From the NCBI GenBank assembly GCA_903889565.1, contig CAISYC010000004.1, forward strand, positions 1-40,912: a DNA stretch of 40,912 bases, read 5' to 3'. The stretch comes from an uncultured beta proteobacterium. Its GTDB lineage: Bacteria; Pseudomonadota; Gammaproteobacteria; Burkholderiales; SG8-41. The notes beneath the pieces were generated by a model. That model was not told where the DNA came from. It searched no databases and saw only the letters and a program-made list of their open reading frames with translations. Positions 3,068 through 12,028 of this stretch are shown here, piece by piece. The stretch's first letter is position 1. Each line of letters starts with the position of its first letter. A program made the translations under genes and the position numbers.

Positions 3068-3367
3068 GTGAATATCTTTGAGCGCTCCGATGAATTCGAC
3101 GCTTGGCTTGCGGGCCTGAGAGACAAAACGGGCCGTGCCCGCATCATCCATCGCATCCGCTCGGCCGAGCACGGCAATTTCGGCGACTGCAAACCAGTGG
3201 GTGAAGGTGTTTCCGAAATGCGCGTCCATGTCGGGCCGGGCTATCGCGTCTATTTCACGCGGCGCGCCAAAGTGATTTATTTGCTTCTGGTCGGCGGCGA
3301 CAAGTCGTCACAGAAGCGTGACATCAAACGTGCCATCGAAATGGCACGGATTCTGAAAAAGGATTGA
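3068..3367 (+). CDS. RelE/HigB-type addiction-module toxin
   Basis: Small basic protein of the RelE/ParE superfamily, in the subgroup annotated as putative addiction module killer protein; such toxins are usually ribosome-dependent mRNA endonucleases. GTG 3068 is preferred because it gives the usual compact start (VNIFERSDEFDAWLAGL, 99 aa); an in-frame TTG at 3032 would place the N-terminus across the operator. Family hallmarks seen are R-A-R-I-x-x-R-I-R, GNFGDCKPVGEGVSEMRVHV and GYRVYFTRR, followed by LLLVGGDKSSQKRDI. The antitoxin gene begins 3 bp after the stop. No strong Shine-Dalgarno is visible, as is common for toxin genes. Confidence 0.85.
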   Translation: MNIFERSDEFDAWLAGLRDKTGRARIIHRIRSAEHGNFGDCKPVGEGVSEMRVHVGPGYRVYFTRRAKVIYLLLVGGDKSSQKRDIKRAIEMARILKKD

Positions 3368-3370
3368 ATC

Positions 3371-3658
3371 ATGACCAAATTTGCCCGCTTCGACGCTGCT
3401 GATTACCTCGACGATGAGGACACCATCGCGGAATATATTACCGCCGCGCTCGAAGATCCCAATCCCGCGGTCTTCCTCGCTGCCGTGCGCGATGTTGCGC
3501 GCGCGCGCGGCATGGCACAACTGGCCAAGGATGCCGGTCTCGGGCGTGAAAGTCTTTATAAAGCACTTACTCCAGGCGCAAAGCCGCGCTATGACACAAT
3601 GCTCAAGCTGCTGCATGCGCTTGGCGTCAAGCTTTCGGCCTCACCTGTTCATTCCTGA
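3371..3658 (+). CDS. HTH antitoxin of the addiction-module antidote family
   Basis: 95-residue partner of the upstream toxin, starting at ATG 3371, 3 bp after the toxin stop. The N-terminal [20 protein letters not shown] segment is characteristic of the antidote family paired with RelE-type killers. The middle carries a Cro-like helix-turn-helix ([19 protein letters not shown], residues about 50-70). It should neutralise the toxin and bind the palindrome at 3041-3058. Toxin first, antitoxin second is the HigBA-type order. Confidence 0.87.
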
Positions 3659-3672
3659 GTTACGAGAATTTC

Positions 3673-3957
3673 ATGCTGATGCACTACCCTCCGCATCCCG
3701 GCGAAGTGCTGCGCCAACTCTGTCTTGAGCCGCTTGGCTTAAATATCACCGACGCCGCCGAAGGACTCGGCATCAGTCGCAAGACCTTGTCGGCGATCTT
3801 GAATGGTCGCGCCGGCATCAGCCCGGAAATGGCGGCGCGCCTTTCGATGGCTTTCGGCACCACCTCCGAAAGCTGGCTCAATCATCAAGTGCAGTACGAT
3901 TTGTGGCAGGCGGAGAAACGGCGCAAAAGCATGCGGGTGATGAAGCTTGCAGCGTAA
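3673..3957 (+). CDS. HigA-family addiction-module antitoxin (second antitoxin)
   Basis: 94-residue XRE-type HTH protein of the HigA class: [20 protein letters not shown] then [20 protein letters not shown] (helix-turn-helix) then [18 protein letters not shown]. Start ATG 3673 or ATG 3679. It follows the first antitoxin by 14 bp on the same strand but belongs to a different antitoxin subfamily, whose usual toxin is an approximately 90-residue HigB encoded immediately upstream. No such second toxin is present, so this is either an orphan antitoxin or a third component of the operon. Confidence 0.85.
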
Positions 3958-5107: not shown

Positions 5108-6052
5108 CTACTCCTCGCGTATTCCAGCGTCTTTTATGACCTTCCCCCACTTCACCGTCTCCGCCTTCATCGTCGCCGCCAGTTCCGTCGGCGTGCCGGC
5201 GACAACTTCGACGCCGCTGCCGAACAGGCGCTCGGCGACATCGGGCCGCCGTAACGCGGCGACCATTTCGCGGTTGAGACGCTCGATGATTGAAGGTGGC
5301 GTGCCCGCGGGTGCGAGCAGCGCGAACTGCGAGGCCGATTCGTAACCGCGCACGCCCGAGGCCGAGAGCGTCGGCAGGCCCGGCGCCAGCGCCGAGGGTG
5401 CGAGCGTGGTGACGGCGAGCGCGCGCACGCGCGTGGATTTCAGATGCGGCGCCACCGTGCCGGCGTTCGGAAACATGATGTGGACCTGGCCGCCGATCAA
5501 CGCGACCAGCGCCTGGCCGCTGCCCTTGTAGGCGACGCGCACGATGTTGATGCCCGCCATGCTCTTCAAAAGTTCCGCAGCAAGATGCGGCGAGGCGCCG
5601 GTGGAGCTCGACGAGTAATTGAGTTCGCCGGGCCGCTTCTTCGCCAGCGCTATCAGCTCGGGCACCGTCTTCGCCGGCACCGAGGGATGGATGGCGAGGA
5701 TGTTCGGCGAGCTGCCGGCGAGCGTGATCGGCGCGAAATCGTGCAGCGGATCGTACGAAACCTGACGCAGCAAGGGGGTCAGCCACAGCGGCGGACCGTA
5801 CGACAGCAGCGTGTAACCATCGGGCGCCGACTTCGCCACCATGTCGACGGCAACGAGGCCGCGGTTGTCGACAACGAATTGCTGGCCGAAGGCGTTGCTC
5901 AGGTGCGAAATGATCAGGCGCGCGATAAGGTCGTTGCCGGTGCCGGGTTCGGCGGTGACGATGCGGACGGGTTTGGCCGGCCAGGGTTGGGCGTGGGCAT
6001 AACCGGCGAACAAGACCGCAATCGAAAAAAATAATGCGCTGAGTTTTGCCAT
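5108..6052 (-). CDS. Bug-family substrate-binding protein, divergent ligand-loop subtype
   Basis: 314-residue periplasmic receptor; the ATG at 6052 gives the Sec leader MAKLSALFFSIAVLFAGYAHA. The first ligand loop is TAEPGTGNDLIAR instead of the usual PPGGxxD, and the second is DNRGLVAVD rather than DNRxGAGG. The same two changes occur in the receptor at 12417-13367, which also shares the VRVAYKGSG and ALAPGLPT segments, so the two are close paralogues. It is downstream of the UGSC selenoprotein on the same strand, with a 47-bp gap holding a dispersed repeat, and may be its cotranscribed receptor. Confidence 0.9.
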   Translation of the reverse strand: MAKLSALFFSIAVLFAGYAHAQPWPAKPVRIVTAEPGTGNDLIARLIISHLSNAFGQQFVVDNRGLVAVDMVAKSAPDGYTLLSYGPPLWLTPLLRQVSYDPLHDFAPITLAGSSPNILAIHPSVPAKTVPELIALAKKRPGELNYSSSSTGASPHLAAELLKSMAGINIVRVAYKGSGQALVALIGGQVHIMFPNAGTVAPHLKSTRVRALAVTTLAPSALAPGLPTLSASGVRGYESASQFALLAPAGTPPSIIERLNREMVAALRRPDVAERLFGSGVEVVAGTPTELAATMKAETVKWGKVIKDAGIREE

Positions 6053-6099: not shown

Positions 6100-7695
6100 C
6101 TAGGTAATTAACTTCGTCACCGACCGCACATGCCCCGACATCGGAATGTAAACCGAATGCGTACCGGTGCCGCCGGCGACGAGGATGCCGATTTCTTCAG
6201 GCTTCTGCGTGATCGGCAACAAAACGTCGCGAGTGATTTCGCCGAGCTCGGCCTTGCGGCCGCTTTGCGTGCGGCCGAAGTCTTTTGCCGACAGGCGCTG
6301 GCATGACAGACGCGCCTGCTCCCACAACAACCGTTTGACATCGGCCTTGCTCAAGCCCTCGCCGTGCAGCACGTCGGCGTGTTCGGGCGAAAGGATCAGC
6401 CACGGCTCACCCGCATAGATGAAATCGCTGCTCGCCGGAAAAGTCATGGTGTCGGCGATGATGCGCAGCAGGTCTTTCGAATCCTTGGCATGCGAATTCA
6501 TGTTCCAGGTGCCGAGCGCGCCAACGGTGGTAACGGTGCTTTGTTCCTTTTTGAAACCGCGCTCGACGTGCAGCGGCTCCCACGGGCTGGCGTCTTCGTT
6601 TTCCGCGCAGCAGAAGGTGTACTTGCCGGGCTGGCCCTGCGTCGATCGATCCATTTCGCCGGCCTGCGCGCCGCCGATGTTCTGTTGAATGAGGCGCATG
6701 GCGCGGCCGAGCGTGGCATTCGCCCACGCGCCGGGCCCGAGGCAGTTGCCGCCGCCGTTCACACACAGCTGTTTGGCCATCGGGCCGTTGACGATCAAAA
6801 ACACCGCAGCCGGATTGGTCGTCGCCTGAATGCCGCGCAGATTGAAGCGCGGATCGGAAATCGCTTCGGTCGCCGCGATCAGCACCGGCAGGTATTCGGG
6901 GTAACAGCCCGCCATCACCGCATTGATTGCGATGCGCTCAACGGTGGCCACGCCGAAAGCCGGCGCCACCGCACCGACCACTTCGTCGGGTTTGCGCGTG
7001 GTGTGCTTCAGCATGGCTTCGACGCGCTCGCGCGTCGGCGGAATCGCCGGCAGGCCGTCGCTCCAGTGACGTTCGAGCAGCATGCGGTTGAAGGCATCGA
7101 TGTCGTCGGCAACTTCAATTTCGTTCGCACGCGCGCCGGCGGCGCTTTTCGTCGCAGCCGTGGCAGCCGGCGCTTCGCATAGCAAGCGCGCGATGTCGTC
7201 GATAACGTCGACGGCGATCTGCTTGATCTCGGCGCGCGTGCGCGTGCCGAACGGATGCGGAATCAGCGCGACGGGCAACGTCGGAAATCCGAGCGCGCGC
7301 GACTGGCCGTGGCCAAGCCCCTTGAATGCCGTCGAGCAGATGGTGACGGCGGCAAGCCCCCGCTTGGCGGCTTCAACACTGTCGTGGACACTCCACGACG
7401 TGCAGGACCCTCAGTCGCCGGAGCCGGTGATGACGGCGTCGCAGCGTTCCTCGTAGTCTTTCAGCACCGCTTCGTCGACCGGCACCTGACCGGACTTGCG
7501 GTGCTTGATCACCGCGGCGACCTTGTATTTGCTTACCAGCAGCTCGGCGAGTTCATCGACGAGGTACTGGAAATTCGGTTTGGCGTTGTCGATGAAGCCG
7601 ACTGTTTTGCCGGCGAGACCGTCGAGCACCGTCTGCGTGCGCGCGGCATGCTGCAGCGGCGCGACCGGATCGAGAACCATCATTGTTGAAGCCAT
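6100..7695 (-). CDS. UGSC-family selenoprotein with fused C-terminal domain (in-frame UGA = Sec)
   Basis: One continuous 531-codon frame from ATG 7695 (Shine-Dalgarno AGAGAGGA about 8 nt upstream) to the stop at 6100, interrupted only by TGA at 7411-7413. Read as selenocysteine (residue 95), it gives U-G-S-C followed by TSWSVHDSVEAAKRG, the recognisable core of the UGSC (seleno)protein family; selenium-free homologues carry Cys at this position. Residues 1-94 hold a FIDNAKPNF segment and VITGSGD just before Sec. Residues 140-531 are a long second domain (WSDGLPAIPP, GIQATTNP, NGGGNCLGPGAW, DRSTQGQPGKY, ASPWEPLHVERGF). A SECIS-like hairpin follows the UGA. The biochemical role of the family is not established; the U/CxxC-like motif suggests redox chemistry. 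A default gene caller would report a 94-aa fragment and a TTG-started 392-aa fragment. Confidence 0.88.
7381..7413 (-). promoter_or_regulatory. selenocysteine UGA codon and bacterial SECIS-like hairpin
   Basis: In the transcript, UGA (7413-7411) is followed by 11 nt (GGGUCCUGCAC) and then GUCGUGG-AGUGU-CCACGAC, a perfect 7-bp stem with a 5-nt loop containing GU. Bacterial SECIS elements lie inside the coding region just after the UGA, with an apical helix about 11 nt downstream and conserved G and U in the loop for SelB binding (known from E. coli fdhF). The spacing fits exactly; no bulged U is seen in the stem. Confidence 0.8.
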
Positions 7696-7785
7696 GCGAA
7701 ATCCTCTCTGAAAACTTGCCGAAAATATTCTTCGCCACCGAAAACACGGGAGACCGGATCGTTGGTATCGAACACAGCGGAAAAC

Positions 7786-7820
7786 CCCGGTATTCCTGCA
7801 GGGGCGGGAACGACGTTTCT
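7786..7820. repeat. possible degenerate copy of a short intergenic repeat
   Basis: In the 236-bp gap between divergent genes (7696-7931), the stretch CCGGTATTCCTGCAGGGGCG then GGAACGACG resembles, in reverse, the start of the element at 35106-35190 (GTCGTTCCCGC...GGGAAT). The arms here are imperfect. Nothing else with coding character was seen in this gap. Confidence 0.35.
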
Positions 7821-7918
7821 CAGAACGCTTTGGAATATCGTGCCGGTTTTCAATACGGATCGTACTCGGAGGCGCGCCGTCTGTCCATGCCGGCGGTCGA
7901 GGCGCGGGATGGTTCGCG

Positions 7919-7924
7919 TAAAAT
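7919..7924 (+). promoter_or_regulatory. possible -10 box of the downstream Bug gene
   Basis: TAAAAT lies only 7 bp before the ATG at 7932. If used, transcription would begin at or beside the start codon, giving a leaderless message. The -35 region (GTCGAG, 17 bp upstream) is poor. Confidence 0.25.
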
Positions 7925-7931
7925 CCAGCGC

Positions 7932-8933
7932 ATGATGAAATTCATCTCGGCGCTGCGGCGTGGCTTCAAAACCGGCCTGCTGTGCGCAAGCGCTGCATGC
8001 ACCTGCGCGCATGCGCAAACGCCGCCGCCGGGTTATCCCGCGCGACCGATCCGCATCATCGTCGGCTCCGCGCCGGGCGGCGGCGCCGATATCATGGCGC
8101 GCGCGGTCGGCACGCAACTCACCGAACGCTGGGGCCGCGCCGTGGTGGTGGACAACCGCGCCGGCGGCGGCGGCGTGATCGCGATGGAACTGCTCGCGCA
8201 GGCGCCGCCCGACGGTTACACGCTGTTCGGCGGCGCGTCGCTTATCATCACTGCCACGCCGATGAGAAAAGTGCGCTTCGACACGCGCGTGGCACTCGCG
8301 CCGATCGTGCAGCTGACGACCTCGCCATACCTCGTGCTGGTACCGCCGGCGCTGCCGGTCAATTCGGTGCGCGAACTGATTGCCTATGCCAAGGCGAGGC
8401 CGAATGCGCTGAGCTATGGCTCGGCGGGTATAGGTTCCTTCGCGCATCTGGGCACCGAGCTCTTCAAGTTCATGGCCGGCGGCATCGACATGGTGCATGT
8501 GCCGTACAAAGGCTACGGTCAGGCACTCACCGATCTGATGGGCGGCCAGATCCAGTTTCTGCTCACCAGCGGGCTTGGCGGCGCACCTTATCTGAAGAGC
8601 GGACGGTTGAAGGCGCTTGCCGCGACCAGCGCGCGGCGGCTCGCCGCGTTTCCAGAGGTGCCGACCGTGATGGAAGCCGGCATCGCTGATTTCCAGCTCG
8701 AGAACATGCATGCGCTCTATGCGCCGGCCGGCGTGCCGGCGGCGATACTCAATGCAGTAAATGTCGAAGCGCACCGCCTGATGCATTCGCCGGAGATGAC
8801 CTCACGGCTGGCCGCCGAAGGCGCCGAAGCGGCGCCGGCGAATACACCCGAGGAATTCCGGCGGACCTTCGTCAAGCAGGTGAATTTGTGGGAGCACTTT
8901 ATTCAGCGCTCGGGGATCAAGATCGAGAATTGA
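7932..8933 (+). CDS. Bug/TctC-family substrate-binding protein
   Basis: 333-residue periplasmic receptor. The frame is open further upstream, but the ATG at 7932 starts a sensible Sec leader (basic MMKFISALRRGFK, hydrophobic core, cleavage after CAHA) and is adopted. Ligand loops are SAPGGGADIMAR and VVDNRAGGGG, followed by VIAMELLAQAPPDGYTLFGG. It shares the IAME and FDTR segments and a C-terminal SGIK ending with the receptor at 37-999, its probable paralogue. It diverges from the selenoprotein gene and converges on the MmgE/PrpD gene at 9120. Confidence 0.92.
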   Translation: MMKFISALRRGFKTGLLCASAACTCAHAQTPPPGYPARPIRIIVGSAPGGGADIMARAVGTQLTERWGRAVVVDNRAGGGGVIAMELLAQAPPDGYTLFGGASLIITATPMRKVRFDTRVALAPIVQLTTSPYLVLVPPALPVNSVRELIAYAKARPNALSYGSAGIGSFAHLGTELFKFMAGGIDMVHVPYKGYGQALTDLMGGQIQFLLTSGLGGAPYLKSGRLKALAATSARRLAAFPEVPTVMEAGIADFQLENMHALYAPAGVPAAILNAVNVEAHRLMHSPEMTSRLAAEGAEAAPANTPEEFRRTFVKQVNLWEHFIQRSGIKIEN

Positions 8934-9119: not shown

Positions 9120-10529
9120 TCAGGCGATCACGAACCCCGGCGGAATCGCCGACACATCCTTCATCTCGTCGAGCTTCCACAACTGCGCGAGCAGCGCGTT
9201 GCACTGCTTCACGCCCAGCGGCTCTTCGCACAGCATGCGGAATTTGTCTTCGATCTCCTGATCGGTCTTCGGCGCCGACAACTCGTCTTTCGCGCCGCCG
9301 GCCTTGCCGACCAGCTTTTCGCCGTTGGCGAGCGTGACGGTGACGCGCGTGTGGTGTTCAACCGGCAGCTTGATGTAAGCCCTGGTGAATTCCTCGTTCT
9401 CGACGACCTCGATCTTGTGGATCAGCGCGCGCAGCGCCGGGTTCCACAGGTGCTGGTCGTTGAACGAGCGCGGCGTCACGGTGCCGTCCATCAGGGTGGC
9501 GGCGACGACATACGGAATACTGTAATCGGCGGTTTCGCGCGTATCCGGATTCCAGCGGTGTTCGCCGGTGCCGACGCGTTCCTTCGCTTTCTTGTAAACC
9601 TCGACGGTGATTTTTTCGACCGCATCGAGATCGCGAAACGGTGCGATATGTTCAGCGGCGAGCACGCTCGAGATCGTAGTGCCGCAGCAGGCGCGCGGCT
9701 TGATCAGCGAATGCTCGATCTTGAACGGCGCGCCGTAGCCGCCGAGCGCGATATCGATCTTGTCGCGCGCGACATGGTCGCACCAGCCGCCCTTGCCCTC
9801 GAACGGCAGATGCGGGCCTTCCATGCCGGCGCGTGCAAGGATCGCCGCGAATACGCCGGCGCGCCCGGCATGGCCCGACGCCACCGCCTTGTACATCGAG
9901 TAATGGCCCATGCGCACCTGGCGCAGGATCACGTTCGGCACCGCCGCCATCGAAATGCACTGCGACAGCTGGTCGGCCGGCAGATCGAACAGGCGGCCGG
10001 AGGCGACTGCGCTGCCGAGCGTGCAGAAGTTGGTGTGGTCGAAACCCATGCCGACGTTCTTGAACACATCGGAAAAACTCTGATAGACCTCGTAGGCGAG
10101 CACGACCGCGGTGATGAAATCGCGGCCATTGGTTTTGACATGCTCGGCCGCCGCGAGTGTAGGTGTCAGCACGTCGCTCGGGTGGCCGCCGAAGGCGCCG
10201 GGCCAGTGATAGATGTCGTTCATCTCGACGTAACGCGCAGTGGCGGCGTTGACGTAGGCGGCCATCTCCGGCGTGGTCTTCATGCGCGTGCCAATGACGG
10301 TGGCGCCGTTGTCGTTCGGCATCGCCGCCGCGACGTCGCGCGCGATACGGCAGGGATCAGCGAAAAATCCGCCGATGAGAGAACCCAGGGTGTCGATCAC
10401 GCGCACCTTGGCGGTGTGCACGGTCTCCGCGGGCAGATCTTCGTAACGGAGCTTTTGGGCGTATTCGGTCAGCTTCAGTTGAATGCCATCGACTGCGCGT
10501 GCCAACATTTTTTCCACCGGCTTGTTCAT
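9120..10529 (-). CDS. MmgE/PrpD family protein
   Basis: 469-residue member of the MmgE/PrpD family, the fold of 2-methylcitrate dehydratase and cis-aconitate decarboxylase. N-terminal helices (LKLTEYAQKLRYEDLPAETV, then VIDTLGSLIGG) are followed by NDIYHWPGAFGGHPSDVLTP, the family active-site region with the conserved His-Pro-Ser-Asp, and later by RACCGTTISSVLAAEHIAP. Start ATG 10529. It is divergent from a second family member at 10622 with only 92 bp between. The substrate cannot be deduced; a hydroxy-acid or unsaturated acid (de)hydration is the family expectation. Confidence 0.9.
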   Translation of the reverse strand: MNKPVEKMLARAVDGIQLKLTEYAQKLRYEDLPAETVHTAKVRVIDTLGSLIGGFFADPCRIARDVAAAMPNDNGATVIGTRMKTTPEMAAYVNAATARYVEMNDIYHWPGAFGGHPSDVLTPTLAAAEHVKTNGRDFITAVVLAYEVYQSFSDVFKNVGMGFDHTNFCTLGSAVASGRLFDLPADQLSQCISMAAVPNVILRQVRMGHYSMYKAVASGHAGRAGVFAAILARAGMEGPHLPFEGKGGWCDHVARDKIDIALGGYGAPFKIEHSLIKPRACCGTTISSVLAAEHIAPFRDLDAVEKITVEVYKKAKERVGTGEHRWNPDTRETADYSIPYVVAATLMDGTVTPRSFNDQHLWNPALRALIHKIEVVENEEFTRAYIKLPVEHHTRVTVTLANGEKLVGKAGGAKDELSAPKTDQEIEDKFRMLCEEPLGVKQCNALLAQLWKLDEMKDVSAIPPGFVIA

Positions 10530-10621: not shown

Positions 10622-12028
10622 ATGACCATCGCACGCGAATTTGCCAAACGCATCGTTGCCATGCGCGCCGACGATCTGCCCGCCCAAGCCATGGCGTGGA
10701 GCAGGGTCGGCCTGCTCGACACGGTCGGCGTGACGCTTGCCGGCGCGCGCGAAGACGCCACCCGCATCGTCGAGGAAGTGCTGGCCTCGCCGTCCTCGGG
10801 ACCGAGCCTGGTATTCGGCGGCCGGCGCCGCGTCGGCGCGCTCGACGCCGCGCTGATCAACGGCACCGCCGCGCATGTGCTCGATTACGACAATGCGACC
10901 AACACCATGTTCGGCCACGCTTCGGCGACCATGATGCCGGCCTTGATTGCGGCGGGCGAAGCGTTCGGCGGCAGCGGCCGCGATCTGCTCGCCGCGCATG
11001 TCGTCGGCTTCGAAGCCGGCGCGCGCCTCGGCCGCGGCGTCAACATGCATCACTACGAAAAGGGCTGGCACCCGACCTCGACGCTCGGCGTATTTGCGGT
11101 GGCGGCGGCCTGCGCACATTTTCTCAAGCTCGACGAAGAACAGACGGCTACCGCGATGGCGATGGCAACTTCGCTCGCTGCAGGCATCAAGGCCAATTTC
11201 GGAACCATGACCAAGCCGCTGCATGTCGGCCAGTGCGCGCGCGGCGGCCTGATGGCGGCGCTGCTGGCGAAAAAGGGCTTCACCGCCAACCACAGCGCGT
11301 TCGAACACAAGCAGGGCTTCTTCAACGTGTTCAATGGCGCCGGAACGTTTGATGCCGCCAAAATTTTCGACGGCTGGGGCGAACCGCTCGACATCGTCGC
11401 ACCGGGCGCCTGCTACAAACAATATCCCTGTTGCGCGAGCACGCATGCGGCCGTCGATGCCGCGCTCGACATCCGCAAGCAAATAACCGAAATGAGCGGC
11501 CCCATCGACGCCGCGCAGATCATGCGCGTCGAATCGTGGACCTCGGCACAGCGCCTCGCGCACACCAACCGGCCGCTGCCGGCAAGCGCACTCGACGCCA
11601 AATTCAGCGTGCAGTATTGCGTGGCGCGCGCGCTGCTCGACGGCCGCGTGCAGTTCAAGGATCTCGAAGGCGATGCCTATCGCGAACCGCGCGTCGTCGA
11701 CCTGTTGCAACGCACGCATGCGACGCCGTTTGCCGACGGTGCGTTTTCGTCGGGCAATCACGTCGGCGCCGAGCTGAAGGTAACGCTGGCCGACGGCCGC
11801 GCATTCACGTCGAAGGTCGCCAAACCGCTCGGCCGCACCTCGGCGAACCCGGTGTCCGACGCCGGCATGCGAGCTAAATTCGAAAGCTGCGCCGCGCGCG
11901 CCCTGCCGGCGGCGCAGATCAAAACCGTGCTGCAGGCGATCGATAACATCGAGCAATGCCGCGCCATCCGCGACTTCACAGCACAAATCGAAATCGCCGC
12001 GCCGCTGCGGGCGGCTTCAGCAAACTGA
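10622..12028 (+). CDS. MmgE/PrpD family protein
   Basis: 468-residue MmgE/PrpD protein from ATG 10622 (an upstream open extension to 10499 overlaps the divergent gene and is rejected). N-terminal VGLLDTVGVTLAGARED, then HVLDYDNATNTMFGHASATM (the catalytic-region His/Asp segment), GWHPTSTLGVFAVAAACAHF, and YPCCASTHAAVDAALDIR, matching the PrpD-fold lid region. It differs clearly from the divergently oriented neighbour, so this is not a recent duplication. Probably dehydrates or isomerises a carboxylic acid delivered by a nearby Bug system. Confidence 0.9.
   Translation: MTIAREFAKRIVAMRADDLPAQAMAWSRVGLLDTVGVTLAGAREDATRIVEEVLASPSSGPSLVFGGRRRVGALDAALINGTAAHVLDYDNATNTMFGHASATMMPALIAAGEAFGGSGRDLLAAHVVGFEAGARLGRGVNMHHYEKGWHPTSTLGVFAVAAACAHFLKLDEEQTATAMAMATSLAAGIKANFGTMTKPLHVGQCARGGLMAALLAKKGFTANHSAFEHKQGFFNVFNGAGTFDAAKIFDGWGEPLDIVAPGACYKQYPCCASTHAAVDAALDIRKQITEMSGPIDAAQIMRVESWTSAQRLAHTNRPLPASALDAKFSVQYCVARALLDGRVQFKDLEGDAYREPRVVDLLQRTHATPFADGAFSSGNHVGAELKVTLADGRAFTSKVAKPLGRTSANPVSDAGMRAKFESCAARALPAAQIKTVLQAIDNIEQCRAIRDFTAQIEIAAPLRAASAN

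Follow-up and report, generated by a model that had tools for sequence, protein, structure and literature searches.

Does the minus-strand frame from 7695 to 6100 of the window (the whole stretch of 40,912 nucleotides analyzed here) encode one intact selenoprotein, or is it a gene broken at an internal stop codon, and what might its product do? The frame runs for 531 codons from ATG to TAG, and its sole interruption is a TGA at 7411–7413, which corresponds to residue 95. The codons around this residue spell GDUGSCTSW and contain the [U/C]GxC motif of the UGSC family. An SD-like AGAGAGG, recognized by eye, lies immediately 5′ of the ATG. Re-reading of the sequence reproduced the frame and the motif given in the preliminary description, and translation with table 11 yielded two ORFs, 7411–7695 (94 aa) and 6100–7278 (392 aa), the pair of false genes that had been expected from default annotation. 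Another minus-strand ORF (7680–8786) was set aside as a shadow, being without a family match and overlapping the opposite-strand receptor gene at 7887–8933.

UGSC is a known family, to which no function is assigned in the available text of a 2008 paper (PMC2398784). A 2026 review (PMC13188914), in the text available, places it among the selenoproteins of largely uncharacterized function.

Decoding of the in-frame TGA

Membership of the family, as proposed earlier, was borne out by Pfam: model PF24696 covered residues 7–173 (7177–7677, minus strand) with 150.4 bits against a gathering cut-off of 25. The NCBIfam UGSC equivalog NF041046 gave 115.9 bits, slightly under its curated cut-off of 125. 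Because the UGSC match stops at about residue 173, the earlier statement that family similarity continues on both sides of the TGA holds only that far; residues ~190–531 (6103–7128, minus strand) form a second, C-terminal domain, so that 6100–7695 is a fusion gene.

The TGA is shared widely. The source genome (5.04 Mb in 74 contigs, 99.69% complete, with 3.9% contamination) contained 22 UGSC matches, 21 of which carry exactly one in-frame TGA at the identical position of the motif. A homolog with 93% identity (locus L048) conserves it, and so do the UGSC domains recovered from related loci of named genomes, in 94 of 95 cases, with Cys at the site in the remaining one. These related loci were the best 80 of 580 confirmed and hence lean to close kin. 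Comparison with the L048 homolog gave dN/dS values of 0.07 for the 94 codons upstream of the TGA, 0.04 for codons 96–172 (77 codons), and 0.07 for codons 173–531 (359 codons); purifying selection acts on both sides of the TGA. The shared site and the low dN/dS speak strongly against a decayed stop, as had been argued before.

A SECIS-like hairpin follows the TGA at 7381–7399 (minus strand). Pair counting and folding gave 8 of 8 pairs and a GUG loop 19 nt past the TGA, and the hairpin spans nt 14–32 on the gene strand when the U of UGA is counted as 0. The strict hairpin rule identified 19 of the 21 TGA-containing copies of the source genome; copy 3, which it missed, has a stem under the helix rule, and copy 14 is the sole one of them lacking a clear stem by the latter. 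The mean energy at these sites was −16.5 kcal/mol, compared to −8.8 at 264 control codons in the 22 genes. A wider survey covered 115 sites, 21 from the source genome and 94 from the best 80 of 580 related loci. Among the 114 distinct UGSC TGA sites, 110 had a stem of at least 6 bp; the UGSC domains of the relatives had one at 269 of 940 control positions. Furthermore, 77 sites have one register in common, in which the stem persists where bases have changed, for example from G-C to C-G.

The contrast with copies that do not encode Sec was modest. In the register of the window gene, the single Cys homolog (L063) formed 6 of 8 pairs, a hairpin weakened rather than absent, at −6.9 kcal/mol versus −12.6 for the window gene, and the single Met paralog formed 4 of 8. 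This paralog, the 22nd copy (C5:87234; L042:3586–5538), has Met (ATG) in place of Sec, retains the next Cys, and forms the longest branch of the UGSC tree. Copy 9 (L028:6380–8125) reads UGTS; its second Cys is gone, and its hairpin is retained in a different sequence. In view of these two copies, 9 and 22, the UxxC pair is not universal. A known RNA family inside the gene was considered and rejected, as Rfam returned no family over its cut-off in the 40,912-nt window and nothing noteworthy in a scan of the gene itself.

The machinery for selenocysteine, which the preliminary description had proposed to look for and whose absence it had named as a refutation, is complete in the source genome, and the selenoprotein reading thus passed this check. 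The tRNA-Sec scored 75.5 bits (gathering score 47), selB 432.3 (cut-off 242.25), selA 599.8 (cut-off 267.9; L025:11924–13342), and selD 423.6 (cut-off 125); selD also has an in-frame TGA. The genes for tRNA-Sec, selB, and selA cluster in ~5 kb of contig C59, where a UGSC gene lies ~3 kb from tRNA-Sec. A pyridine-nucleotide-disulfide oxidoreductase gene (L025:8272–9177), which we read as thioredoxin-reductase-like, lies between selB and tRNA-Sec on the same contig, and its product is a possible electron donor for Sec enzymes.

In a sample of 300 genomes from the order, with up to 11 UGSC candidates scored per genome, 37 had a UGSC match, 34 of them over the cut-off; one match among those listed (G496:C44) is without TGA. 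When the three genomes below the cut-off were counted as lacking UGSC, the hand-compiled table showed selB over its cut-off in 31 of 34 genomes with UGSC versus 54 of 266 others (Fisher p 3e-16). The three UGSC genomes without selB over the cut-off were G415 and G500, both 84% complete, and G421, which is 96% complete.

We infer the selenocysteine from the machinery, the hairpin, and the conservation of the site, and we put the probability that 7695–6100 is a selenoprotein gene at about 97%. If the TGA were a genuine stop or an error of sequencing, in a decaying or split gene, the two ORFs of standard translation would be accounted for, but this explanation has next to no chance of being right, given the TGA at the identical place in 21 paralogs and in 94 homologs from the best 80 of 580 loci, the selection flanking it, the hairpin 3′ of it, and the Sec machinery.

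Paralogs, relatives, and the partner domain

Multiplication of UGSC genes is not confined to the source genome. All 74 genomes of the same family, the source included, contained UGSC matches, from 1 to at least 40 each, and two others of the family reached at least 40; the matches listed and looked through had one TGA each. A tree of 114 UGSC domains did not unite the copies of the source genome in one clade, and 12 label changes were counted. At least five changes were forced by well-supported branches, in a tree with 60 unlabelled rows and bootstrap values not fully settled. The phylum labels, here and in the neighbor counts below, were assigned by hand from record titles. The copies of the source genome look like members of several old subfamilies common to several phyla, as judged from the tree, rather than the product of a single recent burst. 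A single Chloroflexi MAG (JACPQD01) supplies 10 of the best 80 of 580 related loci (L068, L076, L077, L081, L085, L087, L088, L106, L110, and L112), and the multiplication thus extends beyond Betaproteobacteria.

Among named records, the nearest (L048) is a MAG titled Bordetella parapertussis isolate TrH-03may19-76, and most of the following matches carry the titles of Betaproteobacteria, Burkholderiales, or beta proteobacterium MAGs. Five loci in all (L048, L055, L058, L111, and L115) come from MAG records titled Bordetella parapertussis, and their UGSC genes group with those of Betaproteobacteria MAGs; the species labels of these records look doubtful.

The C-terminal domain is a constant partner of UGSC. 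It accompanied UGSC at all 22 loci of the source genome, as a fusion in 13 cases and as the product of a neighboring gene on the same strand in 9. A genome search with 37 partner-domain sequences found 23 copies; the extra one (C45:58076; L159:4035–5099) is a solo domain, with no UGSC match in the surrounding 9 kb and with PEP-mutase-type and MmgE/PrpD-type genes nearby. Sequence set A1 comprised 12 of the 13 fused copies of the source genome, copy 13 being left out for its over-extended start; set A3 comprised P0001 and 43 of 44 stretches, and set A4 the window stretch and 36 of 94 stretches counted. No Pfam or NCBIfam name could be given to the domain, as searches with the 37 sequences returned matches at chance level only (best E 0.026, in single members). 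Its profile likewise matched nothing above chance among PDB sequences (best E 0.46), and a solved homolog by sequence was rejected.

A fusion of UGSC to a conserved domain called "Unknown_1" is reported from the GOS metagenome in the available text of PMC2398784. Going by position only, the partner domain is probably the same as Unknown_1. Compared by description, both fusions join UGSC to a conserved domain without assigned function; what distinguishes the present case is that the partner is fused or adjacent at every UGSC locus of one genome and lies near receptor genes. Compared to the UGSC family as modeled (PF24696/NF041046), the window protein has the domain match, the motif, and the in-frame TGA with a SECIS-like hairpin, and it differs in falling below the NF041046 cut-off, in its fusion to a second domain, and in being one of 22 copies.

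Gene neighborhood and predicted structure

In the window, the fusion gene is flanked by genes for TctC (Bug-type) solute receptors, one 48 nt downstream (5108–6052, minus strand) and one divergent, 192 nt upstream (7887–8933, plus strand). Two genes for MmgE/PrpD-family proteins lie farther on (9120–10529, minus strand; 10622–12028, plus strand). As a whole, the window holds 11 TctC-type receptor frames and 4 MmgE/PrpD frames; their densities elsewhere in the genome, counted over 15 stretches, are 9.4 and 0.3 per 100 kb. A cluster at 3068–3957, encoding a Gp49-like (DUF891) protein, a probable addiction-module antidote protein, and a helix-turn-helix protein, looks like toxin-antitoxin genes.

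Linkage to receptors was found across the source genome. Of the 22 UGSC modules, 20 have a TctC-type receptor frame no more than 1.5 kb away, and for the other two the distance is 3.3 and 4.1 kb. The same proximity was found for 20% of random placements in the 15 other stretches, of which 8 contain a receptor gene of this type at all; the receptor model was derived from the neighbors themselves, the background stretches were chosen by us, and copies 3 and 9, like copies 2 and 21, share a neighborhood. Receptors of the TctC type are frequent in the source genome in any case, with 28 in 297 kb. Among the best 80 of 580 related loci, a TctC receptor gene was present at 32 of 37 betaproteobacterial loci but at only 1 of 23 Chloroflexota loci. 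Other recurrent neighbors in these 80 were enoyl-CoA hydratase (11 loci), CoA-transferase III (10), and family 5 solute-binding protein (9, with 8 of them in Chloroflexota). MmgE/PrpD genes occurred at several loci of the source genome, including the window, but at 6 of the best 80 of 580 related loci. The largest neighbor cluster (73 loci) was judged to consist of antisense shadow frames and was not used. The genes around the modules suggest that organic acids are taken up and broken down.

AlphaFold2 gave a confident model of the fusion protein with pLDDT 93.8 and pTM 0.93 (Sec modeled as Cys) and of the partner domain alone with pLDDT 93.9 and pTM 0.93. In the predicted UGSC domain, strands alternate with helices, and Sec95 would lie between strand 87–93 and helix 96–111. 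Structure-library scores were TM ~0.1–0.3 (query-normalized) and were used solely for the statement that the domain is alpha/beta and not thioredoxin. Matches of the UGSC domain to PDB structures were weak (TM ~0.2 by query); the 50 best rows included azoreductases and flavodoxin-like proteins and no thioredoxin. The predicted model thus speaks against the thioredoxin-like fold that was guessed for UGSC in the 2008 paper (PMC2398784, available text). The best structure matches of the partner domain were Leishmania fumarate hydratases, at a TM of ~0.25, which is too weak for an assignment.

Possible chemistry and biological meaning

A hint to the chemistry came from the Sec-containing subunits of glycine/betaine/sarcosine reductase (Grd, with selenoprotein B, GrdB) and of D-proline reductase (Prd, with PrdB). 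In an NCBIfam scan of 9 of the 22 UGSC copies, 8 touched a Grd/Prd Sec-subunit model at E < 0.1, the best at 0.00099. Copy 18 matched none of these models, and some matches of copy 19 were off the Sec site, on another part of the GrdF/PF07355 models. All were far under the curated cut-offs, the best being 18.6 bits versus 300 for PrdB and 17.1 versus 65.45 for TIGR01918. An hhalign comparison of the UGSC profile with 13 GrdB-like Pseudomonadota proteins, which themselves fall under the TIGR01918 cut-off, gave P 6.5e-5 and a probability of 64%; the alignment spans 64 columns and sets Sec against the first Cys of CPVC in those proteins. In the controls, 20 column shuffles gave P 0.0096 or worse, a reversed profile 0.44, and six unrelated pairs 0.083–0.46. 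The TIGR01918 cut-off was reached in none of 299 genomes, the bridging GrdB-like proteins included. A PrdB search found no match in the source genome and none in its controls either, and it therefore carries no weight.

These similarities weakly support a kinship of the UGSC Sec site to GrdB/PrdB, and membership of those families is not claimed. The two have a UxxC-type site and a weak resemblance around Sec in common. They differ in that UGSC scores are far under the cut-offs, UGSC is present in many copies per genome, and its partner domain, in 37 sequences, matches no NCBIfam model and hence gives no sign of being a pyruvoyl-forming partner of the GrdE/PrdA type. Grd/Prd catalysis is described, in the available text of PMC10298544, as the making and breaking of a Se-C bond during reductive C-N cleavage. 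Together with the similarity at the Sec site, this description favors a Grd/Prd-like reductive cleavage.

The sequences themselves establish the gene, the hairpin, the machinery, the paralogs, the constant partner domain, and the linkage to receptors; we infer the chemistry, the substrates, and the electron donor of the UGSC enzyme as follows. First, SelB and tRNA-Sec would decode the UGA at 7411–7413 as Sec, aided by the hairpin just 3′ of it. Second, the UGSC domain would present Sec as a nucleophile right before a helix, with the Cys three residues on as a possible resolving residue, and the C-terminal domain would most likely form or complete the substrate site. Third, the selenolate may attack the carbon beside the leaving group of a small organic acid (C-N; possibly C-O, C-S, or C-halogen), and a dithiol system would afterwards reduce the Se-C adduct or a selenenylsulfide; the thioredoxin-reductase-like gene between selB and tRNA-Sec may be cited for such a system. 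Adjoining TctC-type receptors would bring the substrates, which would differ among paralogs. As a whole, this proposal of a Sec-decoded, two-domain, receptor-fed enzyme with Grd/Prd-like cleavage is tentative, and its chances are somewhat below even.

Two other explanations were weighed. A substrate-specific but non-reductive enzyme, such as a hydrolase, transferase, or lyase with Sec as nucleophile or metal ligand, is possible but rather doubtful. The genomic context is equally compatible with such an enzyme, and the fumarate hydratases among the weak structure matches of the partner domain and the genes around its solo copy are in keeping with it; the Grd/Prd similarity at the Sec site, weak as it is, and the use of Sec instead of Cys by 94 of the 95 relatives (best 80 of 580 loci) argue against it. 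A generic thiol or selenol oxidoreductase (peroxidase or disulfide reductase) of thioredoxin-like fold, the guess of the 2008 paper in its available text, is improbable. Its UxxC motif is usual in redox selenoproteins, but the predicted UGSC domain alternates strands and helices, the structure rows hold no thioredoxin and have low TM scores, and twenty-odd divergent paralogs near receptors would better fit substrate-specific catabolism.

It is conceivable, although rather unlikely, that UGSC and its partner form an extensive class of reductive lyases dependent on Sec, a distant Grd/Prd branch beyond the classical anaerobes, with one organic acid for each paralog. If so, the class would have diversified to ~20–40 paralogs per genome in parts of a betaproteobacterial family, with multiplication in Chloroflexota too, and the paralogs in Betaproteobacteria would often adjoin their own periplasmic receptor. 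In genomes of this kind, one class of enzyme on its own would then match the largest complete selenoproteomes on record for bacteria.

The UGSC family and a fusion of UGSC to an unknown domain are already in print, as the available texts show. The literature consulted (PMC13188914, PMC2398784, PMC9312934, PMC5029168, PMC9402790, PMC7539508, and PMC5330540) was mainly open-access and represented by main texts, and within it no function of UGSC, multiplication within a genome, receptor linkage, or kinship to GrdB/PrdB was found. The 22 UGSC copies in one genome, 21 of them with TGA, their constant partner, and their linked receptors were not found described in these texts. For comparison, the largest bacterial selenoproteome in the available text of PMC5029168 has at least 39 genes, and here one family alone contributes 21 of Sec type. 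Since standard translation splits these Sec genes, annotation of the lineage likely misses them. The Sec-type copies with their constant partner and linked receptors make a nameless family testable and suggest classes of substrates. The position of most of these Sec genes near a nutrient receptor is a hint that this lineage may carry out a form of selenium-dependent breakdown of organic acids that has gone unrecognized.
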